This document shows, piece after piece, positions 15,956-41,257 of a stretch of DNA of 64,000 nucleotides. Source of the DNA: Saccharothrix obliqua (GTDB taxonomy: Bacteria > Actinomycetota > Actinomycetes > Mycobacteriales > Pseudonocardiaceae); contig NZ_JAHXGQ010000004.1 in assembly GCF_019375475.1 (NCBI RefSeq), positions 620,001 through 684,000 on the forward strand, in the 5' to 3' direction. Under the pieces are notes generated by a model, which ran no database searches, was not told the origin of the DNA, and saw nothing but the letters and a program-made list of their open reading frames with translations. How positions within the stretch are numbered: position 1 is the first letter of the stretch; each line of letters starts with the position of its first letter. Both the position numbers and the translations under genes were made by a program.

Positions 15956-16597
15956 TCAGCGGCCGAACAACCCGACCAGGGTGCCCCCGGCCAGCACGTG
16001 GCCGTCGATCGCGGCACGCAGGTCGTCGGCCGTGACGCCGTCGCCCAACCCGAGCGGCCGGTCCACGGCGAACAGCCGGAACACGTACTGGTGCGGCTCG
16101 TCGCCCACGGGCGGCTGCGGACCGCCCCAGCCGGTGTCGCCGTAGTCGTTGCGACCGACCGATGCGCCGTCCGGCGTCGAGCCCTCCTCGACGGAGGTCA
16201 CGTCGGCCGGGATGCCGGTGACGACCCAGTGCGTGAACGTGCCGCCGGGCGCGTCCGGGTCCTCGCACAGCAGCGCCAGTTCCTCCGCCCCGGACGGCGC
16301 GGACGACCACCGCAACGGCGGTGAGGTGTTGCCGCCGTCGCGCGAGTAGCGGTCGGGGATGAGGGTGTGCCCGCTGAACGCGGCGCTGCGCAGGTCCAGA
16401 CCGCCGTCCTCGGCCGCGCCGCCGCCACCGCCCGCCGGGCCCGCCGCGCGCTCACCCACCGGGCGCGGCGGGTGCTCCTGCCGCAACCGCTCGTTGGCGG
16501 CCCGGTCGGCGTGCTGGTCGGGCACCCCGCTGTTGTCGAGTTCGCCGCGCAACCGCGTGCGCTTGACGTCGTACGCGTGACTGCCTGGGTCGGGCAT
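15956..16597 (-). CDS. YbhB/YbcL-family PEBP-like protein
   Basis: This 213-residue protein has a PEBP (Raf-kinase-inhibitor-like) domain from residue ~65: FSGHTLIPDRYSRDGGNTSPPLRW, CEDPDAPGGTFTHWVVTGIP, and a C-terminal HQYVFRLFAVDRPLGL. These hold the anion-binding Asp/His residues of the YbhB/YbcL family. Residues 1-60 are a charged, low-complexity extension not usual for bacterial PEBPs, with a Gly-rich linker. No signal peptide. The ATG has GAGGAGACGG upstream. Its biochemical role is unknown in bacteria. It is convergent with cydB and follows the PiT gene on the same strand by 49 bases. Confidence 0.85.
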   Translation of the reverse strand: MPDPGSHAYDVKRTRLRGELDNSGVPDQHADRAANERLRQEHPPRPVGERAAGPAGGGGGAAEDGGLDLRSAAFSGHTLIPDRYSRDGGNTSPPLRWSSAPSGAEELALLCEDPDAPGGTFTHWVVTGIPADVTSVEEGSTPDGASVGRNDYGDTGWGGPQPPVGDEPHQYVFRLFAVDRPLGLGDGVTADDLRAAIDGHVLAGGTLVGLFGR

Positions 16598-19412: not shown

Positions 19413-20108
19413 GTGGACGTGCACGGCACCACCGAACTCCGGCAGGCCAACCGCTTCCGCTTGCTCCTGGTCGAGGACGACCGCGAACTCGTGGAACTGC
19501 TCTCCGACGCCCTGCGCGGGGAGGGTTATGCCGTGGACGTGGCCATGGACGGGCACCGCGGTCTGCACCTCGGGCTCACCCGCCCCTACGACGTCGTGGT
19601 CATCGACCGCGGCTTACCCGCCCTCGACGGGATGGACCTCTTGGTGCGCTTGAGGTCCAGGGCCGTGCGGGCGCGGGCGTTGATGCTCACCGCGCTGGGC
19701 ACCGTGCACGACCGGATCGACGGCCTCGACGCGGGCGCCGACGACTACCTGGTCAAGCCGTTCGACCTGGACGAGCTGAGCGCCCGCCTGCGTGCGCTGT
19801 GCCGGCGGGCGCTGGAGCTGAGCGACGTGCTGGACGTCGGCGCGGGCCACCTCGACATCCGGCAGCGGGAGGTGGTGCTGCCCGACGGCGTGCGGGTGCG
19901 GCTCACCACCCGCGAGTTCGCGCTGCTGCGCATCCTCGCCGCCCACCCGGAACGGGTGCACACGCGGTCGGCGCTGCGGCGGTCGGTGTTCCAGGACGCG
20001 TCCGCGCACTCCATTGTGGACACCTACGTGTACTACCTGCGGACCAAGCTCGGCCGTTCGGTGGTGCGCACGGTGCCGGGACTCGGATATCAGTTGGGGG
20101 CGCTGTGA
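19413..20108 (+). CDS. OmpR/PhoB-family response regulator
   Basis: This 231-residue regulator has a receiver domain with acidic pocket E21-D22-D23, phospho-acceptor D65 (VVVIDRGLPALDG), T93 and K115 (YLVKPFD), followed by a winged-helix DNA-binding domain (VRLTTREFALLRILAAHPERVHTRSALRR...YVYYLRTKLG) typical of OmpR/PhoB. The start is the GTG at 19413. Its stop overlaps the histidine kinase start (GTGA), so they form a coupled pair. Target genes are not evident; the flanking lyase gene is on the other strand. Confidence 0.92.
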   Translation: MDVHGTTELRQANRFRLLLVEDDRELVELLSDALRGEGYAVDVAMDGHRGLHLGLTRPYDVVVIDRGLPALDGMDLLVRLRSRAVRARALMLTALGTVHDRIDGLDAGADDYLVKPFDLDELSARLRALCRRALELSDVLDVGAGHLDIRQREVVLPDGVRVRLTTREFALLRILAAHPERVHTRSALRRSVFQDASAHSIVDTYVYYLRTKLGRSVVRTVPGLGYQLGAL

Positions 20109-21403
20109 GCCGTTCGTGGGCCGAAGCGGAACGAGTGGTGATCCGACGGGCACGGCTGCGGGTGAGCCTGCTGGTGGGGTTGGCGATCACCGTGCTGGTC
20201 GGGTTCGTCGGCGGGATCGCCTACGCCGTGATGGTGCAGGCCCAGGGCACGCAGGTGACGCGCGAGCTGCGGTACAACGCCAAGTACGGCACGCCGTCCA
20301 CTCCCCCGGGCTGCACGTGGCTGTTCACACAGGACAACGGGGTGATCGACGACGGCGTGCTGCCGGTGCCGCGTGGGTTCCCGCTGCACGACGACCTCGC
20401 CGCGGCGCGCGAGTCGGGCAGCGCGATCGAGCGCACGGTGGAACGCGACAACACGGTGTACCTGGTGCTCACGCAGCCGGGTCCCGGCACCAGCACGGTG
20501 CAGGCGGTGTTCGACACCCGCTACCAGATCGCCGACCGGCAACACCTGCTGCTGGCCCTGGCGGTCGCGGAGATCTGCGGCCTGCTCGCGGCGGCCGTGA
20601 CGGGGCTGCTGGTGGGCAGGCGCGCGGTCGCGCCGCTGGCGGAGGCGCTGGCGCGGCAGCGGCGGTTCGTCACCGACGCCAGCCACGAGCTGCGCACGCC
20701 GATCGCACGGGCCTACACGCGGGCCCAGCTCCTCGCGCGGCGCGCGGCGGCGGCCGACCTGCCCGGCGAGCACCGCGCCGGCCTGGCCAAGCTCGCCGGT
20801 TCGATCCGGGGTCTCGGTGACGTGGTCGACGACCTCCTGCTGTCGGCGCGGCTGAACGCCGAGTCCACCGGTCAGGTCGTGGACCTGGGCGGCCTGGCGG
20901 AGTCCGCCGTGGCGACGGAGGGCGACCGGGCCCGCGAGCGGCGCATCGCGTTGACCGTCGAGCGCCCCGCCGGTCCGCTGGCGGTGATCGGCGTCGAGAC
21001 CGCGTTGCGGCGCGCGATCGGCGAGCTGCTGGCGAACGCGGTGCGCCACACCCCGGCGGGCGGCCGGATCGACGTGCGCCTGGAGCGGGGGCCGGACGGC
21101 TGGGTGGAGGTGACCGTCGAGGACACCGGCGAGGGTTTCGACCCGGTCGAGGCGGACCGGCTGTTCGACCGGTTCCGCCGCGGCGCGGGCGGCTCGGAGC
21201 GGCGCTTCGGACTGGGGCTGGCGTTGCTGCGGGAGGTGGTGACCGCGCACGGCGGCACGGTCGAGGCGGTCGGCAACCCGGGTCGGGGCGCGCGGTTCAC
21301 GCTGCGCCTGCCGCCGGCCGAGGTGGTGCGTGAGCCCGCGCCCGAACCGTCGTCCGCCGCGGCGGCGGACGACGGTCGGGAGATCAGCACCGGGCACCGG
21401 TGA
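20105..21403 (+). CDS. Membrane-bound sensor histidine kinase
   Basis: This 432-residue kinase has two membrane helices (~residues 20-45 and ~148-170) enclosing a ~100-residue extracytoplasmic sensor. HisKA follows with FVTDASHELRTPIA (phospho-acceptor H194), then N-box ELLANAVRHTP, G1 DTGEGFDPVEADRLFDRF and G2 FGLGLALLREVVTAHGG. The GTG start at 20105 overlaps the response regulator stop. No HAMP domain is obvious; a short linker joins TM2 to the dimerisation helix. The sensor sequence (TWLFTQDNG) matches nothing I recognise, so the signal is unknown. Its 3' end overlaps the last 20 bases of the convergent lyase gene. Confidence 0.92.
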   Translation: MSRSWAEAERVVIRRARLRVSLLVGLAITVLVGFVGGIAYAVMVQAQGTQVTRELRYNAKYGTPSTPPGCTWLFTQDNGVIDDGVLPVPRGFPLHDDLAAARESGSAIERTVERDNTVYLVLTQPGPGTSTVQAVFDTRYQIADRQHLLLALAVAEICGLLAAAVTGLLVGRRAVAPLAEALARQRRFVTDASHELRTPIARAYTRAQLLARRAAAADLPGEHRAGLAKLAGSIRGLGDVVDDLLLSARLNAESTGQVVDLGGLAESAVATEGDRARERRIALTVERPAGPLAVIGVETALRRAIGELLANAVRHTPAGGRIDVRLERGPDGWVEVTVEDTGEGFDPVEADRLFDRFRRGAGGSERRFGLGLALLREVVTAHGGTVEAVGNPGRGARFTLRLPPAEVVREPAPEPSSAAAADDGREISTGHR

Positions 21404-22892
21404 CGACCTCGGCGGCGCGGCGGACGTCCGCGTCGAGCGGGCGGTCCGGGTCGACCGGCGGTATCGCCTCGACGAGGGCGTCGAGCAACTCCGCGCACCG
21501 GGGCGCCGTGGGCCGCCTGCCGCCGACGTGGACGGCCTGGCGCAGTCCCAGCGCGAGCGAACCGCACAGCAGGCGCAGGAGTTCGGCGAGGTCGTGGGCA
21601 CGCAGGGCGGCCTGCGTGCCGAACGGCACGACGTCCTGGTTGTGCAGGTTCGTGGGCAGGCTCTGGGTGCTCGCGGGCAGCGTGCCGCGGCGGATCTCGG
21701 CGACGAACGCGGTGGTGGCCAGCTGCACGCCCTGCAACCCGTGCTGGCGTCCCGGTCCGGCGGCCAGCATCGGCGGCAGGCCGGTGTTGCGGGCCGGGTC
21801 CACCAGCAGGTCGAGCTGCCGCTCCGCGAGGTTGCCCAGGGAAGCGGTGACCATGGCGAGGACGTCGGCGGCGAACGCGGCCGGCTGGCCGAAGAAGTTG
21901 CCGCCGTGGGCGACGAGGTCGTCGTCCGGGAAGAACAACGGGTTGTCACTGACACCGGCCAGGTCGGCGGCCACCACGCCGTCCACGTAGCGCAACGCGT
22001 CCTCGGCCGCGCCGAGGAGCTGCGGTGAGCACCGGATGCTGTAGGGCTCCTGGAGCGCGCGGGAACCGCTGGGCGCGGTGCCGGCCAGCGTCTCGCGCAT
22101 GTGGTCGGCGACGGTGGCCGCGCCCGGGTGGCGGTACGCGGCGATCAGGCGCGGGTCGAGGAAACCCGGGTCCGCGCCGACGACGTCCACCAGCAGGCAG
22201 GTGAGGTCCCGCACGGCGCGGTGCGAGGCGCGGACCGAGTCGAGCGCGAGCGCGGTGGCGGCGGTGGTCACCGACGTGCCGTTCACCAGGGCCAGCGCGT
22301 CGCGGCCGTCCAGGCTCAGCGGGACGAGGCCGGCGAGGCGCAGGGCGTCCCGGGCGGGCATCCGCTCGCCGGCCAGGTAGGCGTGGCCCCGGCCGCGCAG
22401 CGCCTGGGTCGCGTAGGCGAGCGGGATGAGGTCGCCGCTCGCGCCGACCGAGCCGTACCGCGGCACGGCCGGGACGAACGTGGTCGCGAACATCGCGGCC
22501 AGGCCGTCCAGGACGTGGGCGGACACCCCGGACACGCCTTGGGCCAGCGACCACGCGCGCACCAGCAGCGCGGCGCGGACGACGTCGGCGGGCAGGTCGG
22601 GTCCCTGGCCCGCGCCGAGGTGTGCCAGGGTGTTGTCGCTCTGGTCGGCGGGGTCGGCGCGACCGGCGTAGCCGATCAGCGCGCCGAACCCGGTCTTGGC
22701 CCCGTACACGGGGCGGTCGTCGTCGGCGAGCACCGTGCGCAGGAACTCGCGGCCCCGGTCGACGCGGTTCCGGACGTCGGGGCCGACGAGCACCGGCAGG
22801 GGTGCTGCCGCGCGGTGGAGGTCTGCGCCGCGCAACGGCGCGCCGAGGTCCACGGGGGCGTCGGTCGCGGTGCGGGAGTCGGTCGTGGTCAC
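21384..22892 (-). CDS. MIO-type aromatic amino acid ammonia-lyase, tyrosine-type predicted
   Basis: This 502-residue enzyme has the MIO-forming Ala-Ser-Gly (A151-S152-G153 in YGSVGASGDLIPLA), the catalytic Tyr63 (VYGAKTGFG), and LQEPYSIRCSPQLLG. The C-terminal HNQDV motif is the phenylalanine/tyrosine lyase form rather than the NQED of histidine lyases. The selectivity pair appears as H91-L92 (LAHLGAG), which in characterised enzymes goes with tyrosine. It would convert L-Tyr to p-coumarate (or act as an aminomutase). It is divergent from the FMO/ligase/oxidase/P450 operon across a 63-base spacer, so it is very likely part of that pathway. Annotation as histidine ammonia-lyase would be the common alternative. 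Confidence 0.82.
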   Translation of the reverse strand: MTTTDSRTATDAPVDLGAPLRGADLHRAAAPLPVLVGPDVRNRVDRGREFLRTVLADDDRPVYGAKTGFGALIGYAGRADPADQSDNTLAHLGAGQGPDLPADVVRAALLVRAWSLAQGVSGVSAHVLDGLAAMFATTFVPAVPRYGSVGASGDLIPLAYATQALRGRGHAYLAGERMPARDALRLAGLVPLSLDGRDALALVNGTSVTTAATALALDSVRASHRAVRDLTCLLVDVVGADPGFLDPRLIAAYRHPGAATVADHMRETLAGTAPSGSRALQEPYSIRCSPQLLGAAEDALRYVDGVVAADLAGVSDNPLFFPDDDLVAHGGNFFGQPAAFAADVLAMVTASLGNLAERQLDLLVDPARNTGLPPMLAAGPGRQHGLQGVQLATTAFVAEIRRGTLPASTQSLPTNLHNQDVVPFGTQAALRAHDLAELLRLLCGSLALGLRQAVHVGGRRPTAPRCAELLDALVEAIPPVDPDRPLDADVRRAAEVVTGARC

Positions 22893-22916
22893 GGCGTCGA
22901 CGGTAGGCCGCCGATC

Positions 22917-22930
22917 TCAGAGTGTTCTGA
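22917..22930. promoter_or_regulatory. Palindrome in the divergent promoter of the lyase/FMO locus
   Basis: TCAGAGTGTTCTGA has perfect 5-bp arms around GTGT. It lies in the 63-base spacer between the ammonia-lyase and the first FMO gene, 26 bases from the FMO start. It is a candidate operator serving both directions. No regulator gene is adjacent. Confidence 0.4.
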
Positions 22931-22955
22931 AATCGCGTGGGTAGCTTCCGACTGC

Positions 22956-24506
22956 ATGGCGCACGACTACCTGATCATCGGAGCCGGGCCCGCCGGTCTC
23001 CAGCTCGCCGCCCTGATGGAACGCGACGGCCGCGACTACGCCGTCCTCGAACGCGCGGCCGGTCCGGGCAGCAGCTTCACCCGCTTCCCCCGGCACCGCA
23101 CGCTGATCTCCACCAACAAGGTGCACTCGCCCCACACCGACCCGGAGCGGCGGCTGCGCGCGGACTGGAACTCGTTGCTGTCCGACGATCCCGCGTTGCT
23201 GTTCACCCGGTACAGCGACCGGTACTTCCCCCACGCCGACGACATGGTCCGCTACCTGGCCGATTTCGCCGCGGCGACCGGTGCGCGCGTGCACTACGGC
23301 ACCGAGGTCGTGCGGATCTCCCGGGACGACGGCGGTTTCACCGCGGTCGACCGCGACGGGCGGACGTGGCGCGCGGCGCGGGTCGTCGTGGCCACCGGTG
23401 TGCCCCGGCTGCACCTGCCGCCGATCCCGGGCATCGAGCACGTCGAGCACTACGACACGTTCGACACCGACCCGACGTCGTTCACCGGGCAGCGGGTCCT
23501 GGTGCTGGGCAAGGGGAACTCGGGGTTCGAGACCGCCGACTCGCTGATCGCGCACGCGGCGGTCATCCACGTCGCCGGTCCGCACTCGGTGCGGCTCGCC
23601 TGGCAGACGCACTACGTCGGGCACCTGCGGGCGGTGAACAACAACTTCCTCGACACCTACCAGCTCAAGTCCGACAACGCGGTGCTCGACGGCACCGTGG
23701 AACGCATCGAGCCCCGGCCAGGCGGAGGGTTCCGGGTCCTGTTCCGCTACGCGCGCACGGTGGAGTCGGCGCGGGAGCTGGAGTACGACCGGATCATCGC
23801 GTGCACCGGTTTCCGGTTCGACGCCTCGGTGTTCGCCGACGGCTGCCGGCCGGCGCTGGCCATCGACGACCGGTTCCCCGAGCAGACCTCGGCGTACGAG
23901 TCGACCACCGTGCCCGGCCTGTACTTCGCGGGCACGGTCACCCAGCAGCGGGACTTCAAGAAATCCACGAACGGCTTCATCCACGGCTTCCGCTACGGGG
24001 TCCGCGCGCTGCACCACATCCTCGCCGCCCGCCACCACGGCGTCCCGTGGCCGGCCACCCCGGTCGACCCGTCGCCGGAGGCGATCGGCGACGCGGTGAT
24101 CGCGCGGGTGAACCGGTCTTCCGCGCTGTGGCAGCAGTTCGGGGTGATCGGCGACGTGGTGGCGGTGACCGGGGAGACCGCGCGGTACGAGGAGGAGGTG
24201 CCGGTGGCGTACCTCGCGGACGGCGGGCTCGGCCCGGCGGAGCACCGGTTCGTCGCGACGCTGGAGTACGGGCCGGACCACGACACCGCGGACCCGTTCG
24301 ACATCTCGGTGCCGCGGGTGGCGGAGAACGACGCCGAGAACGCCCACGAGGCGAGCTACCTGCACCCGGTGGTCCGCCACTACCGGGACGGCGTGCTCAC
24401 CGCGACCCACCACCTGGCCGAGAACCTGGACAACCGCTGGGACCTGCCCGCGGTGCACCGGCAGCCGCTGGCCGCGTTCGTGAAGGAGTGCCTTGTCGAC
24501 GCGTGA
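22956..24506 (+). CDS. FOXRED2-like flavin-dependent monooxygenase (paralog 1)
   Basis: This 516-residue flavoprotein has FAD motif LIIGAGPAGLQLAALMER (residues 5-22) and an NADPH Rossmann motif VLVLGKGNSGFETADSL in mid-protein. It also has a long conserved block TRFPRHRTLISTNKVH...DWNSLLSDDPALLF that I recognise from FOXRED2/ERFAD-type proteins rather than classical FMOs. The later DFKKSTNGFIHGFRYGVRAL is shared with its paralog at 26021. Such enzymes usually oxygenate N, S or a carbonyl. The ATG opens the rightward operon. The ligase gene overlaps its end by 14 bases. Substrate unknown. Confidence 0.85.
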   Translation: MAHDYLIIGAGPAGLQLAALMERDGRDYAVLERAAGPGSSFTRFPRHRTLISTNKVHSPHTDPERRLRADWNSLLSDDPALLFTRYSDRYFPHADDMVRYLADFAAATGARVHYGTEVVRISRDDGGFTAVDRDGRTWRAARVVVATGVPRLHLPPIPGIEHVEHYDTFDTDPTSFTGQRVLVLGKGNSGFETADSLIAHAAVIHVAGPHSVRLAWQTHYVGHLRAVNNNFLDTYQLKSDNAVLDGTVERIEPRPGGGFRVLFRYARTVESARELEYDRIIACTGFRFDASVFADGCRPALAIDDRFPEQTSAYESTTVPGLYFAGTVTQQRDFKKSTNGFIHGFRYGVRALHHILAARHHGVPWPATPVDPSPEAIGDAVIARVNRSSALWQQFGVIGDVVAVTGETARYEEEVPVAYLADGGLGPAEHRFVATLEYGPDHDTADPFDISVPRVAENDAENAHEASYLHPVVRHYRDGVLTATHHLAENLDNRWDLPAVHRQPLAAFVKECLVDA

Positions 24507-26004
24507 CACCGGGCCGTTCCCGCGCGCGGTGCTCGACGCGCTCGCCGCCGCGGCGGACCGGCCGGTGTTCGAGCACGGCGCCCGCTTGGTCGGCGGAGCG
24601 GAGCTGCTGGACCTCGTCGAGCGGATCGCGGCCGGGTTGCGCGGCGCGGGGGTGGGTCCCGGCGACGGCGTCGCGCTCCTGCTCGGCGTCCACGCGGAGG
24701 CGTTCGCCACGATCCTCGCCGCCCACGCGGTGGGCGCCCGGGTGGTGGGCGTGCGGCCGGGGCTGCCCGACGCGCAGGTGCGCCACCTGCTCGGTCTCGA
24801 CATCGCCGCGGTGGTCACCGATTCGAGCGGTGCCCACGCCTCGCACGCGATCGCGGAGCCGCACCCCGCCGAGCCGAGCAGCACCGCCAACGGCGACACC
24901 CCGCTCATGCTCACCGTCGAGCAGCTGTGCGAGGCACGTGCCGGGAGCGGCCCGTTGCGGCTCGGGGGGCGGGCGGCGGACGTGGCCCGGCTGACCCACA
25001 CCAGTGGCAGCACGGGGATGCCCAAGGCGTGCGCGCAGACCTACGCCGCGCTGACCGCCGCGTGGGTCGCGCGGCCCGCCGCGTGGCCGCCGGCGGTCCG
25101 CGAGCTGGCGTCCCGGCTGGACCGCTTCCTGGTCTTCGGGACGCTGTCGAGCCAGGTGGTGTTCGACTACGCCGTGCTCGCCATCGCCGCGGGCGGCACG
25201 GCGGTCGTCGCCGACCGGCCGGCGTTGCCCGACGCGATCACGCGCCTGCGCGCCTCGGGCTGCGTGATCACGGTGCCGCGATTGGCGAAGCTCGTCGCGG
25301 CGCAGCGCCGCGCACCCGCCGACCTGTCGACGCTGCGGGCGCTGATGGTGTCCGGCTCGCCCCTCACACCCGACCGGCACCGCGAGGCGCTGGACGTGCT
25401 CGGCCCGGTCGTCTTCCACGGCTACGGCCAGACCGAGACCGGGATGATCTCCATGGCGACCCCGGACGACCCGCCGGGCTCGGTGGGCGTCCCGCCGGCC
25501 GCCGTGGACGTCGAGATCCGCGACCCGGCCGGCACACCGGTGCCGACCGGCGTGGACGGCGAGCTGTTCGTCCGCACCCCGGCCCAGGCCACGTCGTACT
25601 GGGCGGACCCGGAGCGGTCGGCGGAGGTGTTCGTCGGCGGCTGGGTGCGCACCCGCGACCTCGGCCGCTTCACCCCGACGGGCCGGCTGCGCCTGACCGG
25701 CCGGACCCGGGACGTGGTGATCGTCAACGCGAACCTGCACCACGTCGGCCCCATCGAGCAGGTCATCGCCGAGCACCCGGACGTCGCCGAGGCGTACGTG
25801 GTCGCCGTCCCGGACGACGAGACCGGCGAGGCGGTGCACGCGTTCGTGGTGCCGACCGCCGACCGGGCGCCCGACCTGGCGGCGCTGCGCGACCTGGTGA
25901 CCGCCCGGCTGGGCGCGGCGTGCGCGCCGGCGCGGCTGACCGTGATCGCGGAACCACCGCTCGCCCCGAGCGGCAAGCCGGACAAGCGCCTGCTGACCCC
26001 CTGA
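24493..26004 (+). CDS. AMP-dependent acyl/aryl-CoA ligase or adenylating enzyme
   Basis: This 503-residue ANL-superfamily enzyme has the P-loop LTHTSGSTGMPKA, A5 motif GYGQTETGM, A7 RTRDLGRF, hinge GRTRDVVIVNANLHHVGPIE, and the adenylation lysine in PSGKPDKRLL. There is no carrier-protein domain. The hinge sequence NANLHHV departs from the usual GxNV/IxP. It probably activates a carboxylate, plausibly the cinnamate/coumarate-type product of the ammonia-lyase or a later intermediate, as AMP ester and CoA thioester. The start is a TTG at 24493 preceded by AAGGAG, overlapping the FMO gene by 14 bases. Confidence 0.82.
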   Translation: MSTRDTGPFPRAVLDALAAAADRPVFEHGARLVGGAELLDLVERIAAGLRGAGVGPGDGVALLLGVHAEAFATILAAHAVGARVVGVRPGLPDAQVRHLLGLDIAAVVTDSSGAHASHAIAEPHPAEPSSTANGDTPLMLTVEQLCEARAGSGPLRLGGRAADVARLTHTSGSTGMPKACAQTYAALTAAWVARPAAWPPAVRELASRLDRFLVFGTLSSQVVFDYAVLAIAAGGTAVVADRPALPDAITRLRASGCVITVPRLAKLVAAQRRAPADLSTLRALMVSGSPLTPDRHREALDVLGPVVFHGYGQTETGMISMATPDDPPGSVGVPPAAVDVEIRDPAGTPVPTGVDGELFVRTPAQATSYWADPERSAEVFVGGWVRTRDLGRFTPTGRLRLTGRTRDVVIVNANLHHVGPIEQVIAEHPDVAEAYVVAVPDDETGEAVHAFVVPTADRAPDLAALRDLVTARLGAACAPARLTVIAEPPLAPSGKPDKRLLTP

Positions 26005-26020
26005 GAACCGAGGAGAAACC

Positions 26021-27604
26021 GTGCCCAGCGAAATCTCGACCGAGTACCTCGTCATCGGCGCCGGCCCGGCGGGGTTGCAGGCGTCGCACCTGCTCTCCCG
26101 CGCCGGCCGCGACCACCTGGTGCTCGAAGCCGGCGACGCGCCCGGCGCGTTCTTCACCCGCTTCCCCCGCCACCGCACGCTGATCTCCAGCAACAAGGTG
26201 CACACCGGCTGGGACGACCCCGAGCTGAACCTCCGGGTCGACTGGAACTCGCTGCTGTCCGACGACCCGTCGCTGCTGTTCACCGGCTACACGCCCCGTT
26301 ACTTCCCGCCCGCCGAGGTCATGGTCCGGTACCTGGCGGACTTCGCCACCAAGCTGGACCTGCCCGTGCGCTGCGGGGTCAGGGTCGTGTCGATCACCCG
26401 CCCGGACGACTTCGTGGTCCGCGACCAGCGCGGCGACACCTACCGGGCGCGGCGGCTCATCGTCGCCACCGGCGTGACCAAGCCGTACGTGCCGCCGATC
26501 GAGGGCGTGGAGCACGCCGAGCGGTACGACGAGGTGTCGGTGGACCCGGCCGACTTCACCGGGCAGCGGGTGTTGATCATCGGGCGCGGCAACTCGGCGT
26601 TCGAGACCGCCGACAACCTCATCGAGACGGCGGCGGTCATCCACGTCGCCGGGCCGGGCTCGCTGAAGCTGGCGTGGCGGACGCACTTCGTCGGCCACCT
26701 GCGCGCGGTCAACAACAACTTCCTCGACACCTACCAGCTGAAGTCGCAGAACGCGGTGCTGGACGGGCGGATCGCGGGCATCCGCCGCGACGGCGACGAG
26801 TACGCGGTGCGGGTCGCCTTCGCGCGGGTCGGCGACCGGGTGAAGGAGATCCGCTACGACCGGGTGATCCTCGCGACCGGTTTCCGGTTCGACGCGTCGA
26901 TCTTCGCGCCCGAGTGCCGCCCCGAGCTGACGATCAACGACCGCTTCCCGGGCCAGACCGCGGCGTGGGAGTCGGTGAACGTGCCCGACCTGTTCTTCGC
27001 GGGCACCATCACGCAGGCCCGCGACTTCAAGAAGTCGACCAGCGGTTTCATCCACGGCTTCCGCTACGGGGTGCGGGCGCTGCACCGGCTCCTCGAGCAC
27101 CGCTACCACCGCGTGCCGTGGCCGGGTGCCGACCTCCCCCCGACGCCGGGCGCGGTGGCCGACGCGGTCATCGCCAGGGTGAACCGCACGTCGGCGCTGT
27201 GGCAGATGTTCTCGTTCCTGGCCGACGCGGTGCTGTTGGGTCGGGACGGCACCTTCCGCTACGCCGAGGAGGTGCCGCTGGACCACCTGCACGAGGCGGT
27301 CGGGCGCGGCGAGTTCGGCGATGTCGACTCCTACCTGGCGGTGACGCTGGAGTACGGCGAGGGCCACGACCGCGTGGACCCGTTCGACATCACCGAGGGG
27401 CGTGCCGCGAAGGACAGCACCGGCGGGCTCGACGGCCGCTACCTGCACCCCGTGGTGCGGCACTACCGCGGCGGCGTGCTGGTCGGCGAGCACCACCTCA
27501 CCGAGAACCTGGACAACGAGTGGGACAGCGAGGAGGGGCACCGCGCGCCGCTGCTGGCGTTCCTGCGCGCCCGGCTCGCCCCGATCACCGCGGAGGCCCG
27601 GTGA
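26021..27604 (+). CDS. FOXRED2-like flavin-dependent monooxygenase (paralog 2)
   Basis: This 527-residue enzyme matches the first FMO over its whole length: VIGAGPAGLQASHLLSRAGR, TRFPRHRTLISSNKVHT, DWNSLLSDDPSLLF, IIGRGNSAFETADNL and RDFKKSTSGFIHGFRYGV are all shared or nearly so. The two paralogs flank the ligase gene and probably arose by duplication, then specialised to consecutive oxidations. The GTG start at 26021 follows GAGGAG. Its stop overlaps the FMN oxidase start (GTGA). The substrate is unknown; N-oxidation, Baeyer-Villiger oxidation and S-oxidation are all possible. Confidence 0.85.
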   Translation: MPSEISTEYLVIGAGPAGLQASHLLSRAGRDHLVLEAGDAPGAFFTRFPRHRTLISSNKVHTGWDDPELNLRVDWNSLLSDDPSLLFTGYTPRYFPPAEVMVRYLADFATKLDLPVRCGVRVVSITRPDDFVVRDQRGDTYRARRLIVATGVTKPYVPPIEGVEHAERYDEVSVDPADFTGQRVLIIGRGNSAFETADNLIETAAVIHVAGPGSLKLAWRTHFVGHLRAVNNNFLDTYQLKSQNAVLDGRIAGIRRDGDEYAVRVAFARVGDRVKEIRYDRVILATGFRFDASIFAPECRPELTINDRFPGQTAAWESVNVPDLFFAGTITQARDFKKSTSGFIHGFRYGVRALHRLLEHRYHRVPWPGADLPPTPGAVADAVIARVNRTSALWQMFSFLADAVLLGRDGTFRYAEEVPLDHLHEAVGRGEFGDVDSYLAVTLEYGEGHDRVDPFDITEGRAAKDSTGGLDGRYLHPVVRHYRGGVLVGEHHLTENLDNEWDSEEGHRAPLLAFLRARLAPITAEAR

Positions 27605-28689
27605 ACCCCGCGCTGGCCGAACTGCACGCCGAGGCACGCGCGGCGCTCGACCCCGTGCACTACGACTACTTCGCGGGCGGTGTCGGCGAGGAGGTCGTGC
27701 TCGGCGCGAACGAGGCGGCGTTCGGGCGACTGGCGCTGCTGCCGCGGGTGTTGCGCGGCAGCACCACCCGCGACACGGCCGTGGACCTGCCGGGCGGTCG
27801 CCTGGCCGCGCCCGTGCTGGTCGCGCCCACCGCCTTCCACCGGCTCGCCCACCCCGACGGCGAGCTGGCGACGGCGCGGGCCGCCGCGGCGGCCCGGACG
27901 GTGCTGGTGTCCGGGGTGGCCTCGACCGTGGCGATCGGCGAGGTGGTGGCGGCGGCACGGGCGGTGGACCCGGGCGCGGCCGTGTGGTTCCAGCTCTACC
28001 CCGAGCCCGACGAGGACGTGACGGCGTGCCTGGTGCGCCGCGCCGAGCACGCCGGCTGCACCGCGCTGGTGGTGACCGCCGACTCACCGGTGTTCGGCCG
28101 GCACCGCCGCGACATCGCGCACGGCTTCCACGACCTGCCCGCGGGCCTCGCGGCGGAGAACATGCGGGACCTGCCGGGCGGTCCGCCGGGTGCGGTCCGG
28201 GACATCGGGATGTCGCCGGCGGCGTCGTGGGCGCACCTGGACCGGCTGCGGGAGCTGACGTCGCTCCCGGTGTGGCTCAAGGGTGTCCTGCACCCGGCGG
28301 ACGCGGTGCTCGCCGTCGAGCACGGCGTGGCCGGTGTCGTGGTGTCCAACCACGGTGGCCGCCAGTCCGACGTGGTGCCCGCCGCCGTCGAAGCGCTGCC
28401 CGCCGTGGTCGACGCGGTCGCCGGGCGGGTGCCGGTGGTGCTGGACGGCGGTGTGCGGCGTGGCGGCGACGTCGCCGTGGCGCTCGCACTCGGCGCGGCA
28501 GCGGTCGGCGTCGGCCGACCGGTGCTGTGGGGCCTGGCCGCGGCCGGCGAGGCGGGCGTGACCCGTGTCCTGGACGTGCTGCGCGACGAGTTCGACCACG
28601 TCCTCGCGTTGTGCGGTGGGCGCGACGCCGCCGACCTCACCCGGGACCAGGTCGTCACCCGGGGGGTGACCACGCGGTGTGGGTGCTGA
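27601..28689 (+). CDS. FMN-dependent alpha-hydroxy acid oxidase/dehydrogenase
   Basis: This 362-residue TIM-barrel flavoenzyme is of the glycolate/lactate/mandelate oxidase family. It has an N-terminal HYDYFAGGVGEEVV (FMN-side Tyr), PVLVAPTAFHRL, WFQLYPEPDE, K227 (WLKGVL), catalytic H251 and R254 in VVSNHGGRQSD, and the phosphate-binding DGGVRRGGDV. It oxidises an L-alpha-hydroxy acid to the keto acid, passing electrons to O2 or a carrier. Relatives include the hydroxymandelate oxidases of glycopeptide pathways, which would fit a tyrosine-derived substrate, though this is inference. It overlaps FMO2 by GTGA, and its 3' end overlaps the P450 start by 13 bases. Confidence 0.88.
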   Translation: MNPALAELHAEARAALDPVHYDYFAGGVGEEVVLGANEAAFGRLALLPRVLRGSTTRDTAVDLPGGRLAAPVLVAPTAFHRLAHPDGELATARAAAAARTVLVSGVASTVAIGEVVAAARAVDPGAAVWFQLYPEPDEDVTACLVRRAEHAGCTALVVTADSPVFGRHRRDIAHGFHDLPAGLAAENMRDLPGGPPGAVRDIGMSPAASWAHLDRLRELTSLPVWLKGVLHPADAVLAVEHGVAGVVVSNHGGRQSDVVPAAVEALPAVVDAVAGRVPVVLDGGVRRGGDVAVALALGAAAVGVGRPVLWGLAAAGEAGVTRVLDVLRDEFDHVLALCGGRDAADLTRDQVVTRGVTTRCGC

Positions 28690-30065
28690 CGGGGTTGCTC
28701 GCCGCGGCGGCGCTGACCGCGCCGCGCTGGCTGCCCGCGCGGGTGGTCGCCCTGCGCGGCAAGGTTTTCGAGAAGGTCAACGGGGACAACGCGATCACGT
28801 TCCCGAACGCCGTGGTCGGGCCGGACCGGTTCGAGGAGGTCTACGGCCACCCGGCGGCGAACGGCCGCAGCCGGGGCGCCGGGCTCTCGGACCTGTTCTG
28901 GTACTGGCTCTCCCCCGGCGCGGAGGTGCACCAGGAGCACCTGGAGGACGGGCCGCGCTACGACGACGTGGCGCGCACGACGCGTGCGCTGCTGTCGGGG
29001 CCGAGCGACGCGCTGTCGGCGGCGGCGGCGCGTTGTGCCGGGCGGGTGCTGGACGAGCTGGTCACCGGGCAGGTGACCCTGGTGCGGTTGCGCGACCTGA
29101 TGGTGCCGGTGTGGGCGGAGTTCTTCTACGAGGTGGTGTTCGGCGAGCCGTGCCCCCGCGCGGCCCGGGACCTGATCGTGGGGCACGCCGACGACGTGGT
29201 GACGGCGTTGAAGTGCACCGGCCTGCGCCACCCGGCGCGGCGGGCCCGGCTGACCCGCTACCTCGCCCGGCGCGTCGCGGCCGGTGACGTGCGGCAGCCG
29301 CTGCCCACCACCCTGACGCCCGCCGAGCAGGCGCATTACCTCCAGGGCACGTTCTTCAACACGGCCGTGGTCCAGATGTCCGAGGCCATGGCGCACCTGC
29401 TGCTCGCGCTGGCCCAGCACCCGGAGGTGGCGGCCCGGCTGGCGGCCGACCCGGACGACGACCGCTACTTCACGCACGTCCTCGACGAGACCATGCGGCG
29501 CTACCCGTTGTTCGGCATCGCGCACCGCATCACCACGGCCGACATCGTGCTGGACGAGCACACCACGCTGGCCAAGGGCTCGGTGCTGTGCTTCAGCTAC
29601 CCCGACTACCACGCCAGCGGCTACCGCGACCCGGACGTGTTCGACCCGGACCGCTGGGAAGACCTCCCGGCGCGGGCGGCGCACCACATCCCGTTCGGCG
29701 TCGCCGCCAACCGGCCGTGCCCGGCGTGGCGGCTGTCCCCGCTGGCGATCCGCGCCGCGACCGCGGAGGTGTTGCGCCGCTTCACGTTGCACTCCACGGC
29801 CGGCCACACCCGGTCGCTGCCCAACCGGGGACCGTGCCTGCTGGTGCGGGTCGGGCACGCGCTGCCGCCACGCCGCCTGGCCGTGTTCGGCGGTCTCCTG
29901 CGCGTCCGCGACCGGTGGGAGGACGTGTGGCGCAGCGTGGTCCAACTCGTGCTCGGCACGGTCATGGTCCTCGACGCGCGCAGGAAGCGCTTGGCCGGGC
30001 GCTACTTCGACAAGCACGACACCGGGGGCTGCCCGGTGCCCCACACCTCGGAGGTCACCGGGTGA
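28677..30065 (+). CDS. Cytochrome P450-like protein with degenerate I-helix and heme-loop motifs
   Basis: This 462-residue P450-fold protein has K-helix ETMRRYP (E271/R274), the meander DPDVFDPDRW, and a heme loop FGVAANRPCPAW with thiolate C348. Two features depart from the norm. The usual Gly of FxxGxxxCxG and the Gly two residues after Cys are both Ala. The I-helix region (GTFFNTAVVQMSEAMAHLL) lacks the A-G-x-D/E-T oxygen-activation motif. An N-terminal hydrophobic helix (~1-25) may anchor it in the membrane, and ~80 residues follow the usual end. It may not be an O2-activating monooxygenase. The GTG start follows GGGGGGTGA; its stop overlaps the antiporter start. Confidence 0.8.
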   Translation: MWVLTGLLAAAALTAPRWLPARVVALRGKVFEKVNGDNAITFPNAVVGPDRFEEVYGHPAANGRSRGAGLSDLFWYWLSPGAEVHQEHLEDGPRYDDVARTTRALLSGPSDALSAAAARCAGRVLDELVTGQVTLVRLRDLMVPVWAEFFYEVVFGEPCPRAARDLIVGHADDVVTALKCTGLRHPARRARLTRYLARRVAAGDVRQPLPTTLTPAEQAHYLQGTFFNTAVVQMSEAMAHLLLALAQHPEVAARLAADPDDDRYFTHVLDETMRRYPLFGIAHRITTADIVLDEHTTLAKGSVLCFSYPDYHASGYRDPDVFDPDRWEDLPARAAHHIPFGVAANRPCPAWRLSPLAIRAATAEVLRRFTLHSTAGHTRSLPNRGPCLLVRVGHALPPRRLAVFGGLLRVRDRWEDVWRSVVQLVLGTVMVLDARRKRLAGRYFDKHDTGGCPVPHTSEVTG

Positions 30066-31351
30066 ACCAGATCGAGTTCGCGTTGCGGGTGTTCGCGGCG
30101 CTGGCGGTCGTGCTCGTCGCGACGAGCCTGTGCGGGCGGTTGGCCATGCTGGTCAAGCAGCCCAGGGTGGTCGGCGAGATGGTCGCCGGCGTCCTGCTCG
30201 GGCCGGCCCTGCTGGGCGCGGTCGCACCGCAGGCGCAGGCGCAGCTGTTCCCCGCGGACGTCAAGAACGTCCTGTACGTGTTGAGCACCATCGGGTTGAC
30301 GTTCTACATGTTCCTGGTCGGCGCGTCGCTGGACCACGGGCGGACCGCCGGGCGCAACATGCGGCGCGCCTCGGTGCTGGCCGCGTCGGGCATCCTGCCC
30401 ACGTTCCTGCTCGGCGCGGGCGCGGCGGCGTTGTTCGCCGGTTCGCTGAGCCCCGAGGGGTCCAGCCCGTGGGAGTTCATGCTGTTCGTCGGCGGCGCGC
30501 TGTCCATCACCGCGTTCCCCATGCTGGCCCGCATCCTGGACGAGCGCGGTATCGCCAACACGCCCATCGGCGGCCTCACCCTGGTGGCCGCCGCGATCGA
30601 CGACGCGGTGGCGTGGGTGCTCCTCGCGGTGATCATCGCGGTCGGCACGGCGGGCAGCCCGTTGGACGCGTTGGACACCGTGGTGGGCGCGGCGGTGTTC
30701 GCGCTGGTGATGCTCACCGCGGGCCGCAAGCTGCTCGGCCGGCTCGGCGAGCGGGTGGAGCGTGCCGGCCGGATGAGCCGCGACGTGATGGCCCTCGTGC
30801 TGTTCGTCGTGCTGGCGGCGGGCTGGTTCACCGACTACATCGGCGTCTTCTCGGTGTTCGGCGGTTTCATCACCGGCCTGGCGATGCCGCAGTCGGCCGT
30901 CGTGCGGAAGGAGTTGGAGACCAAGCTGACGGACCTCAACTCGATCCTGCTGCTGCCGGTGTTCTTCGCGTTCAGCGGCCTGAACACGGAGGTTTCCGGC
31001 TTCACCGCGGGAGGCTCCCTCTGGCTGCCGCTCGCGGTGATCACGGTGGCGGCGGTCGCGGGCAAGTACCTCGGCTGCGCCGCGGTCGTGCGTGCCCAGG
31101 GCTTCCCGTGGCGGTTCGCGTCGGCGGTCGGCGGCCTGATGAACGCCCGCGGCCTGATGATCCTGATGTTCATCAACATCGGGCTCGCGCACGGGTTGGT
31201 GACGTCCGAGATGTTCGCGATCCTGGTCGTGGTCGCGATCGCCACCACGGCCGCCGCGATGCCGATCTACCGCGCGTCCCTGCCCGAGAGCTTGGAGCAG
31301 GGCACGTCCACCGCCCCGCCGGCCCCGGTGCCGGTCCGGAACCGGCGGTAG
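30062..31351 (+). CDS. CPA2-family cation/proton antiporter
   Basis: This 429-residue integral membrane protein of about 12 helices is from the Kef/NapA (CPA2) superfamily. It has a family signature VGEMVAGVLLGPALLG near the N-terminus, the transport-site Asp pair in VAAAIDDAVAWVLLAV, FFAFSGLNTEVS, and GLMNARGLMILMFINIGL. No RCK/TrkA-N domain is attached, so it is not a full KefB/C. It overlaps the P450 stop (GTGA) and is the last gene of the operon. Antiporters of this kind often close antibiotic clusters, where they may export the product or balance ions. A terminator hairpin follows ten bases after the stop. Confidence 0.88.
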   Translation: MNQIEFALRVFAALAVVLVATSLCGRLAMLVKQPRVVGEMVAGVLLGPALLGAVAPQAQAQLFPADVKNVLYVLSTIGLTFYMFLVGASLDHGRTAGRNMRRASVLAASGILPTFLLGAGAAALFAGSLSPEGSSPWEFMLFVGGALSITAFPMLARILDERGIANTPIGGLTLVAAAIDDAVAWVLLAVIIAVGTAGSPLDALDTVVGAAVFALVMLTAGRKLLGRLGERVERAGRMSRDVMALVLFVVLAAGWFTDYIGVFSVFGGFITGLAMPQSAVVRKELETKLTDLNSILLLPVFFAFSGLNTEVSGFTAGGSLWLPLAVITVAAVAGKYLGCAAVVRAQGFPWRFASAVGGLMNARGLMILMFINIGLAHGLVTSEMFAILVVVAIATTAAAMPIYRASLPESLEQGTSTAPPAPVPVRNRR

Positions 31352-39129: not shown

Positions 39130-40089
39130 TCAGTCGGGCAGCTCCGCCGCGATCCTGAGCAGCCAGTGGGTGATCTCGGCGGTGTCGTCGAACGTGGTGG
39201 GCACCGGTTCGCCGGGCGACCAGCAGCCGTCCGGCGACTGGGCGGACAGCAGGTGCTCGGTGACGCCGACCGCCAGGTCGAGCCGACGCGGGTCGCCGGT
39301 GTGGCGGGCCAGGAGCGCGGCGCCCCAGGCGACCTTGTGGCTGAGCTGGGTGGTGCGCAGGTTCTCGCCGCACGAGGCGGCGTAGTCCGCGTAACCGGCG
39401 GCGGCGGCGAGTTCGGCCGGGTCGCCGGTGACCTGGTGCAGGCGGGTGAGGAACGCGATCGGGTAGCCGATCATGAAGTAGGGCTGGTCGGGCGCGCCGG
39501 TGGTGAGCGCGTGCAGCGGCGAGTCGCTTTCCTCGCACAAGCCGTTCTCGTTGGCACGCAGGAAGAAGCGCTTGTGCGGTTCGGGTTGCGCGTGCAGCAG
39601 GGACGCCAGCCACGCACCCGCGGCGCGGGCCGCGGGCAGGTCGCCGAGGGTGAGCGCGAGGTAGCCGAGGTGCGCCGTGCTGATGGCGTCGGCCGGTCCG
39701 GTGCGGTTGGCCCGGTGACCACCCGATTCACCGAACCGGTAGGCACGCAGGTGGCGGTGGGCGCGGTCGGCCAGGTCGAACCGGCCGAGCTGGTGCGCGC
39801 CCAGCGCGATCCAGCCGTTGGGGTAGGACCAGAACTCCTGGTACACCGGGTTCTCGCTCTTGAGACCGGGCGCGGTGACGAAATCGCCGTCGTCGGTGGC
39901 GTAGCGGGCGTCGATGAACTCCAGCAGCCGGCGGGCCGCGCGCGGCCGGCCGGCGGACGCCAGCGCGGCGGGTGACTTGTAGTGGCAGGCCAGGTCGTCC
40001 TGCCCGTAGGAGCCGTCGGCGGCGATCCGCGCCACCAACCAGTTCGCGCCACGCGCGGCGGCGGCCGCGCAGCGCTCGGCGAGCGTCAT
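39130..40089 (-). CDS. Alpha/alpha-toroid (terpene-cyclase/prenyltransferase-like) protein
   Basis: This 319-residue protein has repeating helix-hairpin units with Gln/Trp-type repeats (LLSAQSPDGCWSPGEPVPTTFDDTAEITHWLL; SYGQDDLACHYKSPAALASAG). This is the alpha/alpha-barrel fold of prenyltransferase/squalene-cyclase repeats and polysaccharide-modifying enzymes. No DxDD or DDxxD catalytic motif is clear, and FDD-T-A-E near the C-terminus is only partly similar. Its ATG at 40089 overlaps the stop of the O-methyltransferase gene (ATGA), so the two are coupled within a three-gene set headed by a P450. The reaction is unknown. Confidence 0.68.
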   Translation of the reverse strand: MTLAERCAAAAARGANWLVARIAADGSYGQDDLACHYKSPAALASAGRPRAARRLLEFIDARYATDDGDFVTAPGLKSENPVYQEFWSYPNGWIALGAHQLGRFDLADRAHRHLRAYRFGESGGHRANRTGPADAISTAHLGYLALTLGDLPAARAAGAWLASLLHAQPEPHKRFFLRANENGLCEESDSPLHALTTGAPDQPYFMIGYPIAFLTRLHQVTGDPAELAAAAGYADYAASCGENLRTTQLSHKVAWGAALLARHTGDPRRLDLAVGVTEHLLSAQSPDGCWSPGEPVPTTFDDTAEITHWLLRIAAELPD

Positions 40090-41141
40090 CGGGGTGTCCC
40101 TCCGGGTTCGTCCGCCGGGCCGTCGACGACGGCCTCCACGACGGACAGGACGGTCGGCGTGGGCACGACGCGGGTCAGCCGCAGTCCGGCCGAGGCGAAC
40201 AACGCGCGGAAGTCCTCCTCGGTGCGCTCGCGGCCGACCAGCGACGCCATCATCATCAGGTCCAGCGCCTTGCCCTGGTGCGGCACGTCGCCGGGCGGGA
40301 GGACCGCGTCGATCACGAGCACCCGCCCGCCCGGTCGCAGGGCGCGGCGGCAGTTGCGCAGGACGGTGGCGCACTGGTCGTCCGTCCAGTCGTGCAGGAT
40401 CCGCTTGAGCACGTGCACGTCGCCGGGTGGCACCGCGGCGAAGAAGTCGCCCTCCGCCGTCGACCAGCGCCCCCGCGTGCCGTCGACGTCGAGGCGGTGG
40501 CCGGCCAGCACGTGCCCCTCGTCGTGGAGCACGCCCTTCAGGTCCGGGCGTGCGAGCAGGACGGCGGCCAGGAAACCGCCGTGCCCGCCGCCCACGTCCA
40601 CCACCACGGCGTTCGGCGGGAAGTCGCAGCAGGCGGCGATGGGCGCGTTCTCCGTCTCGGAGAACGCCGCCATCCCGTCGTGGAACACCGCCGCGGTCGG
40701 GGCGTCCCGCGCGAAGTGCTCGAAGAAGGGCACGCCGAAGATGGCGTCGAACGCCGAGCCGCCGCCGGTCAGGCAGCGGGCCATCTCGCCGGCGGGCCGC
40801 CACATCGTCGGGTCGGTCAGCATCAGCACCGCCGACCGCGCCGACACCGGCGCGTCGGTGCGCAACGCGTCACCGGCCTCCGTCAACCGGAACCGGCCGC
40901 GCTCGTCCTGCTCGAACAACCCGCGGGTCGCCAGCAGCCGCAGCACGCGGAACAGGTTGTCCGCGTCCGTCCCGGTCAGCTCCGCCAGTTCGGCGGCGGC
41001 ACGCGGGCCGCCCGCCAGGTGGTCGGCGACGCCGACCTCCGCCGCCGCCCGCAACGCGGCCGGGTACAGGTACCCCAACGCCTCGTCGATGACCGCCGCC
41101 GCCGCGCGACGCGGGTCGGGTCCGGCCGGTGCGCCGCTCAC
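40086..41141 (-). CDS. SAM-dependent O-methyltransferase (dimerisation plus AdoMet domain)
   Basis: This ~350-residue class I methyltransferase has an N-terminal helical dimerisation domain (GVADHLAGGPRAAAELAELTGTD, NLFRVLRLLATRGLF). The AdoMet domain follows with VVVDVGGGHGGFLAAVL, the RILHDWTDDQC motif and RVLVIDAVLPP. These are hallmarks of COMT-type small-molecule O-methyltransferases. I chose the GTG at 41141; another GTG at 41180 is possible but lacks a ribosome-binding site. It is coupled to the downstream toroid protein by ATGA and follows the P450. A phenolic or hydroxyl substrate is likely. Confidence 0.87.
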   Translation of the reverse strand: MSGAPAGPDPRRAAAAVIDEALGYLYPAALRAAAEVGVADHLAGGPRAAAELAELTGTDADNLFRVLRLLATRGLFEQDERGRFRLTEAGDALRTDAPVSARSAVLMLTDPTMWRPAGEMARCLTGGGSAFDAIFGVPFFEHFARDAPTAAVFHDGMAAFSETENAPIAACCDFPPNAVVVDVGGGHGGFLAAVLLARPDLKGVLHDEGHVLAGHRLDVDGTRGRWSTAEGDFFAAVPPGDVHVLKRILHDWTDDQCATVLRNCRRALRPGGRVLVIDAVLPPGDVPHQGKALDLMMMASLVGRERTEEDFRALFASAGLRLTRVVPTPTVLSVVEAVVDGPADEPGGTPR

Positions 41142-41257
41142 GCGCCGCCCCCGCACGGGGTTTCGACCGCCGCGCACCACCCGGTGCGACCGCCTGCGGT
41201 TCGGTGGACTTCACGGGACATCACGCCTCCAGCGTCCGGTGGGGCGGCGGCACGGCA

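Follow-up and report, generated by a model that had tools for sequence, protein, structure and literature searches.

Introduction

In the bag and fev clusters, as outlined in excerpts of their description (PMC6692506), a tyrosine ammonia-lyase provides coumarate and an adenylating ligase condenses two small units. The ava and cma clusters, according to a portion of another report (PMC11705231), arrive at a coumarate-type product via diazotization, with AvaD/AvaE, CmaD/CmaE, and AvaA6/CmaA6. Here, we analyze a locus of seven genes at positions 21384 to 31351 of a 64,000-nucleotide stretch (the window) from Saccharothrix obliqua (contig NZ_JAHXGQ010000004.1), which is described as a soil actinobacterium and has a genome of 8.04 Mb that is 96.8% complete. 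The locus encodes an aromatic amino acid ammonia-lyase, two flavin oxygenases (FMO1 and FMO2), a ligase, a flavin mononucleotide (FMN)-dependent oxidase, a cytochrome P450, and an antiporter. It represents a cluster family made up of enzymes of known kinds, among them an unusual P450. No description of a matching cluster or its product was found in the open-access papers searched, which agrees with the original view, formed from the letters of the window, that the parts do not suggest a known product.

By comparing sequences, we document the composition, co-inheritance, and modularity of this locus, a conserved box, and the association of this box with a response regulator. We give slightly better than an even chance to the reading that this is a two-module biosynthetic locus under one two-component system, which would make a coumaroyl amide from p-coumarate and a partner made by the core module. 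The locus matters as a small operon with a likely switch, for the contrast between ligase clades with or without the lyase, and for a family of P450s that lack the pair normally used to activate oxygen.

Composition of the locus

All seven open reading frames (ORFs) and the Pfam families of their products were confirmed, together with the divergent gap and overlapping starts noted previously. The lyase gene (21384 to 22892) lies on the minus strand; across a 63-base gap (22893 to 22955), the plus strand carries genes for FMO1 (22956 to 24506; Pyr_redox_3, 4e-44), the ligase (24493 to 26004), FMO2 (26021 to 27604; Pyr_redox_3, 4e-47), the FMN-dependent alpha-hydroxy-acid oxidase (27601 to 28689; FMN_dh, 4e-111), the P450 (28677 to 30065; p450, 1.3e-13), and the antiporter (30062 to 31351). 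The FMO1 and ligase genes overlap by 14 bases, with a TTG start for the ligase, and 16 bases separate the ligase from FMO2; FMO2 and the oxidase overlap at GTGA, as do the P450 and the antiporter, and the oxidase and P450 genes overlap by 13 bases. Among the seven genes, Pfam finds no polyketide synthase (PKS) or nonribosomal peptide synthetase (NRPS), as had been claimed. The predicted extent was right for these seven genes and missed a regulator/kinase pair (19413 to 21403) and an inverted repeat (22914 to 22933).

Core and lyase module

A scan of genome contigs with FMO2 gave 366 relatives; locus counts use the best 80, whose content was scored by tblastn with the window proteins. Fifteen of these FMO2-anchored loci are shorter than 20 kb, and so some missing genes may reflect contig ends. 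The FMN oxidase is present in all 80 loci and the P450 in 79 (the exception, L036, is a 6.3-kb contig), followed by the ligase (70, at ≥40% identity), the antiporter (65), the response regulator (32 of the fetched stretches, at ≥55% identity), and the lyase (26). These frequencies suggest that FMO2, the oxidase, and the P450 form a core to which the lyase and FMO1 are an add-on. Because the FMO, oxidase, and P450 occur together in 79 of the 80 loci, and because lyase-bearing sets are found in other orders too, the association goes beyond chance, which supports the earlier view that the genes belong together; a hypergeometric P value of 7e-21 for the gene counts ignores kinship and is not used as a probability. 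The varied gene order of the fused relatives (L065, L069, L071, L077, L080, L084, and L103) argues for selection keeping the genes together. Median identities to the window, to which kinship contributes, are 70% with versus 47% without the lyase for the ligase, 71 versus 67% for the oxidase, and 77 versus 65% for the P450. The core trio is found in Pseudonocardiaceae, Streptomycetaceae, Nocardiaceae, Micromonosporaceae, Streptosporangiaceae, and Thermomonosporaceae and includes neither a PKS nor an NRPS gene; among plasmid records, P450 matches above 36% identity occur only in Nonomuraea, in a record without annotation.

A draw of 345 genomes from the class contained 12 with the P450, each with an FMO2 match next to it on the same contig. 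Among 249 genomes of the family, FMO2 (E ≤ 1e-100) is present in 61, the P450 (E ≤ 1e-60) in 56, and the lyase (E ≤ 1e-120) in 42; when these 42 are split by the identity of their rows, 27 have a lyase ortholog (77 to 100%) and 15 have only paralogs (57 to 64%). The core P450 is present in all 27 genomes with the ortholog. A separate lyase subfamily of the 4-methylideneimidazol-5-one (MIO) type, 56 to 64% identical to the window lyase, recurs in the family (G390, G396, G412, G430, G598, and others), and the core P450 is absent from 12 of the 15 genomes that hold only paralogs.

Lyase and core are unlinked in eight genomes: six of the 249 (G348, G356, G358, G470, G490, and G521) and two of the 345 (G016 and G161). 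In single-contig genomes, the separation is ∼0.4 Mb (G348 and G356) or 3.7 Mb (G161); in the others, the lyase lies at a distance or on a different contig, as in G016. In the seven genomes for which both loci were fetched (all except G356), the lyase, ligase, and FMO1 genes lie at one place and FMO2, oxidase, P450, and antiporter genes at the other; at the lyase locus, FMO1 is missing in G490, and both FMO1 and the lyase are in two pieces in G521. In L112 (4753 to 9075), the matches to the lyase and to FMO1 are both split in two, with the pieces in different frames, through either decay or assembly error.

As judged from these sequences, the window locus is the fused form of two modules with different histories, not the one linear pathway proposed originally; 54 of the 80 loci have the core and no lyase. 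We found no evidence for the predicted order of steps. Separation of the genes in relatives, which was to speak against the prediction, does occur for linkage (the eight genomes above) and does not for co-occurrence, with the P450 accompanying the lyase ortholog in 27 of 27.

Ligase clades and the proposed fate of p-coumarate

The ligase belongs to the ANL superfamily (AMP-binding, 3e-53, plus a C-terminal domain; PF00501 and PF13193), and the C-terminal lysine in its GKPDK motif is aligned with 6sq8. In a tree of 85 ligase rows (84 different), with "lyase-linked" meaning within 9 kb of a lyase, a split with 100/100 support separates 34 lyase-linked rows and one from Labedaea (L021), with no lyase in the stretch fetched for it, from 50 lyase-less rows (two identical). 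The ligase clade thus goes with the lyase, which makes it likely that the lyase-linked ligase acts on what the lyase produces and bears out the pairing made in the original prediction. The ligase probably activates p-coumarate and forms an amide: after adenylation, the acid would be transferred to a nucleophile, for which an amine from the core is the best candidate, giving a coumaroyl amide.

A possible, though rather unlikely, alternative is that the ligase makes p-coumaroyl-coenzyme A (CoA) for an acyltransferase encoded elsewhere, so that the product would be an ester or other acyl conjugate decorated by the core. Its best NCBIfam matches are indeed acyl-CoA ligases (PRK06187, 211 bits, under the cut-off of 476), and solved CoA ligases match too. 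However, its closest solved relatives, 6sq8 (210 bits) and 6h1b (207 bits; the next has 162), labeled fatty acid CoA ligase in the structure match list, are entries that we take to be the amide synthetase McbA, and no acyltransferase is found among the seven genes by Pfam; with the outer genes of relatives unannotated, a conserved one may still lie nearby.

On an unlikely reading, core and lyase module represent independent pathways that share a regulator, were fused in this lineage, and yield two products. The eight unlinked genomes and the 54 lyase-less loci are consistent with it, and four genomes (G016, G161, G348, and G358) carry one ligase of each clade, a separate ligase for each module. 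On the other hand, the lyase ortholog was never seen without the core P450 (27/27); G470, G490, and G521 have only a lyase-type ligase at the lyase locus, with none found in the neighborhood of the core; and the fused loci among the 80 hold only the lyase-type ligase (≥40% identity).

A two-component system and a conserved box

An OmpR-type response regulator (RR; 19413 to 20108; Response_reg plus Trans_reg_C) and a sensor histidine kinase (20108 to 21403, start uncertain within 20108 to 20135; HisKA plus HATPase_c), both on the plus strand, adjoin the locus upstream and converge on the lyase, with the 3' end of the kinase gene overlapping that of the lyase gene by 20 bases. By aligning the lyase-FMO1 gaps of 35 sources, of which 20 were listed, we found an inverted repeat, ATCTCAGA-N4-TCTGAGAT. 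This operator-like element without strand, also written as ATCTCAGA-N4-TCTGARAT, lies between the lyase and FMO1 at 22914 to 22933 and is conserved in relatives; in the 8.04-Mb genome, it occurs at this one place at ≤2 mismatches, and a backward control gave 0 matches. Across 2.19 Mb of loci, in which a few contigs are represented more than once, there are 23 perfect copies and 15 copies with 1 to 3 mismatches; one of these 15 (L093) is unrelated to the cluster. A reversed, uncomplemented control gave no match at ≤3 mismatches and 3 matches at 4 mismatches, versus 21 real ones at 4.

The box (≤3 mismatches) is present in 29 of the 32 loci with the RR versus 1 of the 48 without it; the sole box locus without the RR, L016, is a stretch that begins inside the lyase. 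A Fisher P value of 3e-17 for these counts over 80 loci ignores kinship and is not used as a probability. Among the RR-bearing core loci listed, direct repeats (TCTGAG-N5-TCTGAG) stand shortly before FMO2 in L067, L075, L085, L098, L099, and L104, a single TCTGAG in L073, L083, L100, and L102, and none in L066. G016 and G161 carry the RR at the core locus, and both of their unlinked modules are preceded by boxes, the lyase-side one having 3 mismatches. The association of box and RR across loci suggests that the regulator binds the boxes, and the locus genes are probably switched together by the neighboring sensor pair: the kinase would sense a signal, and the regulator would bind TCTGAGA boxes and turn on the divergent units.

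Two flavin oxygenases

In an FMO tree of 121 rows, a quick tree with some long branches flagged, the lyase-module FMOs group together as a single clade of 28 rows (SH-aLRT 99) nested in the wider family, so that FMO1 is most probably a duplicate of a core FMO. One lyase-bearing relative (L008) retains a short start of the FMO1 gene between lyase and ligase. The FMO2 model (predicted local distance difference test [pLDDT] of 79.0) is less sure than the P450 model, and its matches include both flavin monooxygenases and reductases. FxGxxxHxxx(W/Y) is a fingerprint of class B flavin monooxygenases; in the corresponding stretch of the FMO alignment (A2), only G162 and Y169 are invariant, and the spacing is one short. 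A more distant FMO subfamily (42 to 48% identity) is present in other actinobacteria (L090 to L095), where these stretches match no other window protein and give no lead on chemistry; this FMO sits with small genes that on inspection look AhpD-type and SnoaL-like in L090, L091, L093, and L095, and L094 shows none.

P450, FMN oxidase, and antiporter

The divergent core P450 has an ExxR motif (E271 in 80/80 rows and R274 in 79/80; window plus 79 loci) and a heme cysteine, C348, in all rows; its heme loop, PFGVAANRPCPA (29691 to 29726), has N345, R346, C348, P349, and A350 in 80/80. Within residues 222 to 240, no row has an Asp or Glu followed by Thr or Ser, the acid-alcohol pair. In the I-helix stretch FNTAVVQ (residues 227 to 233; 29355 to 29375), the invariant V232-Q233 takes the place of the pair by gap-free extension of the alignments, in a register that is not certain because the aligned blocks begin 1 to 2 residues after V232-Q233 and the CYP152 alignment is gapped there. 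Since the pair is missing, peroxide use or a nonoxygenase reaction is possible: the P450 might work by peroxide, which is speculative, or as a rearrangement or dehydration enzyme.

Its model (pLDDT 84.9) matches many P450 folds, with CYP152 among the best TM-scores of the 50 matches listed. Membership in CYP152 was rejected: no row has an Arg at residues 222 to 240, and Arg-Pro is invariant in six CYP152-like rows. Other bacterial P450s, found as weak ApyO-model matches, align better over residues 235 to 393 (E 3.6e-18); the class I control for these profile comparisons gave E 0.0025. A CYP74-like reading, suggested by the Asn in the I-helix and the N-R-x-C loop, is conjectural and was likewise not adopted.

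In FMN alpha-hydroxy-acid oxidases, a His/Arg and Tyr/Asp set is catalytic. The window oxidase and its relatives have H251, R254, D161, and R170 in 80/80 rows and Y133 in 77/80; Tyr23 is present in only 29/80, with Phe in 51/80. The original label, an Hmo-like oxidase, is loose, given that spinach glycolate oxidase scores 282 bits versus 231 for 4-hydroxymandelate oxidase. The core would oxidize a primary metabolite, and the nature of its product is speculative; in it, the oxidase would dehydrogenate an alpha-hydroxy acid, or else an alpha-amino or N-hydroxy acid, releasing H2O2. A further proposal, which we consider very doubtful, is that FMO, oxidase, and P450 form a new, widespread cassette in which peroxide from the oxidase feeds the P450, itself lacking the acid-alcohol pair, and a common reactive unit is capped by lineage-specific ligases with various acids, here p-coumarate. 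In Nonomuraea gerenzanensis (L104), the oxidase is missing from its place between FMO2 and the P450, a result that refers to this interval, the rest of the chromosome not being settled; the two genes nearly abut (16540 to 16570), and the absence of the oxidase there weakens obligate peroxide coupling.

The CPA2-type cation/proton antiporter (Na_H_Exchanger, 3e-46; TIGR00932, 6e-41, under its cut-off) may serve export or self-protection. Its median identity falls from 80% in lyase loci to 41% in lyase-less ones; it is 38 to 42% in lyase-bearing L069, L071, L077, L080, L084, and L103 too, and the antiporter therefore does not follow the lyase. In most distant loci, it is 38 to 44% identical, versus ∼55 to 75% for the core trio; because its identity falls while that of the trio holds, repeated replacement of the antiporter is possible.

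Lyase

The window lyase (Lyase_aromatic, 4e-128) and those of 25 loci share the MIO residues Ala151-Ser152, in an invariant GASGDL, as well as His91-Leu92 and Asn418-Gln419-Asp420 (26/26 rows each). A His-Leu pair is the selectivity pair of tyrosine ammonia-lyase, and both this pair and NQDVV match 2o6y, which we take to be the Rhodobacter tyrosine lyase, at the same places. The host paralogs L002 and L003 are without the His-Leu pair; L002 shares NQD, and L003, which on inspection resembles HutH, carries Ser-His and QEDHV at those sites. The lyase misses the cut-offs of the HutH model TIGR01225 (347 versus 539 bits) and of the bagremycin/ferroverdin lyase model NF041222 (BagA/FevW; 230 versus 1000 bits). 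With its tyrosine-type residues, which agree with the earlier assignment to tyrosine, the enzyme likely makes p-coumaric acid by deaminating tyrosine, as would be expected of this family. Action on phenylalanine or histidine, giving cinnamate or urocanate, is quite improbable and the least favored of the alternatives: MIO families differ by few residues, the best NCBIfam match is a HutH model (355 bits, under the cut-off of 524), and the best solved match is labeled probable histidine ammonia-lyase, but the His-Leu pair and NQDVV are those of 2o6y, unlike the Ser-His and QEDHV of L003.

Evidence against the two-module reading

Several observations weigh against a coumaroyl amide made by two modules under one switch. 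The core lacks the lyase in most loci, as counted above, and FMO1 is absent while the lyase is kept in L008, L024, and L111. Three loci (L066, L073, and L083) have the RR and no box at ≤3 mismatches, and G348 and G358 have the RR and a box at the lyase module with no box (≤3 mismatches) at the core locus. The oxidase is missing from its place in L104. The P450 may still perform ordinary oxygen chemistry; the missing pair proves no other chemistry, and Asn228 (79/80 rows) with Thr229 (80/80) is the nearest analogue of the pair. Some true monooxygenases, P450cin and EryF, are without part of the pair. Finally, the ligase may instead act as a CoA ligase.

Neighboring genes

A second small group lies at 39130 to 42508 of the window, comprising a P450 (41258 to 42508), a gene that is methyltransferase-like by eye, and a further ORF. 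A P450 that is 59% identical to that at 41258 to 42508 sits ∼60 kb off on the same contig.

Comparison with known systems

Parts of the locus resemble several described enzymes. The P450 resembles CYP152 (P450BSbeta and OleT), with a TM-score of ∼0.67 to 0.69 by target length and E ∼1e-9 for P450BSbeta and a profile match of E 1.9e-10 over 319 columns, and differs in that the I-helix Arg-Pro is absent. Like 4-hydroxymandelate and glycolate oxidases, the oxidase is an FMN_dh protein with catalytic His and Arg; unlike in those systems, the seven genes include no hydroxymandelate synthase, and Tyr23 is Phe in 51 of the 80 rows. The closest solved relative of the ligase, at 210 bits, is a presumed McbA-type synthetase (6sq8/6h1b), but the seven genes include no beta-carboline-type enzyme, and amide formation by the window ligase is putative.

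Among whole clusters, ava and cma also concern an actinobacterial coumarate-type product, as far as the portion of PMC11705231 goes, and differ in that no diazotization-type gene is found among the seven window genes by Pfam. The lentzeacin pyrazines were considered and set aside, as the excerpt of PMC8658869 that mentions a Lentzea lyase shows no link to this locus. The bag and fev clusters have their own 3,4-AHBA genes, a UbiX/UbiD decarboxylase, and a DAHP-type aldolase, and neither P450 nor monooxygenase is mentioned in the text of PMC6692506; the window lyase scores 230 bits versus the BagA/FevW cut-off of 1000. Nevertheless, with a tyrosine-type lyase and an adenylating ligase, the bag and fev clusters described there are, though not gene for gene, nearest in idea to the window locus.

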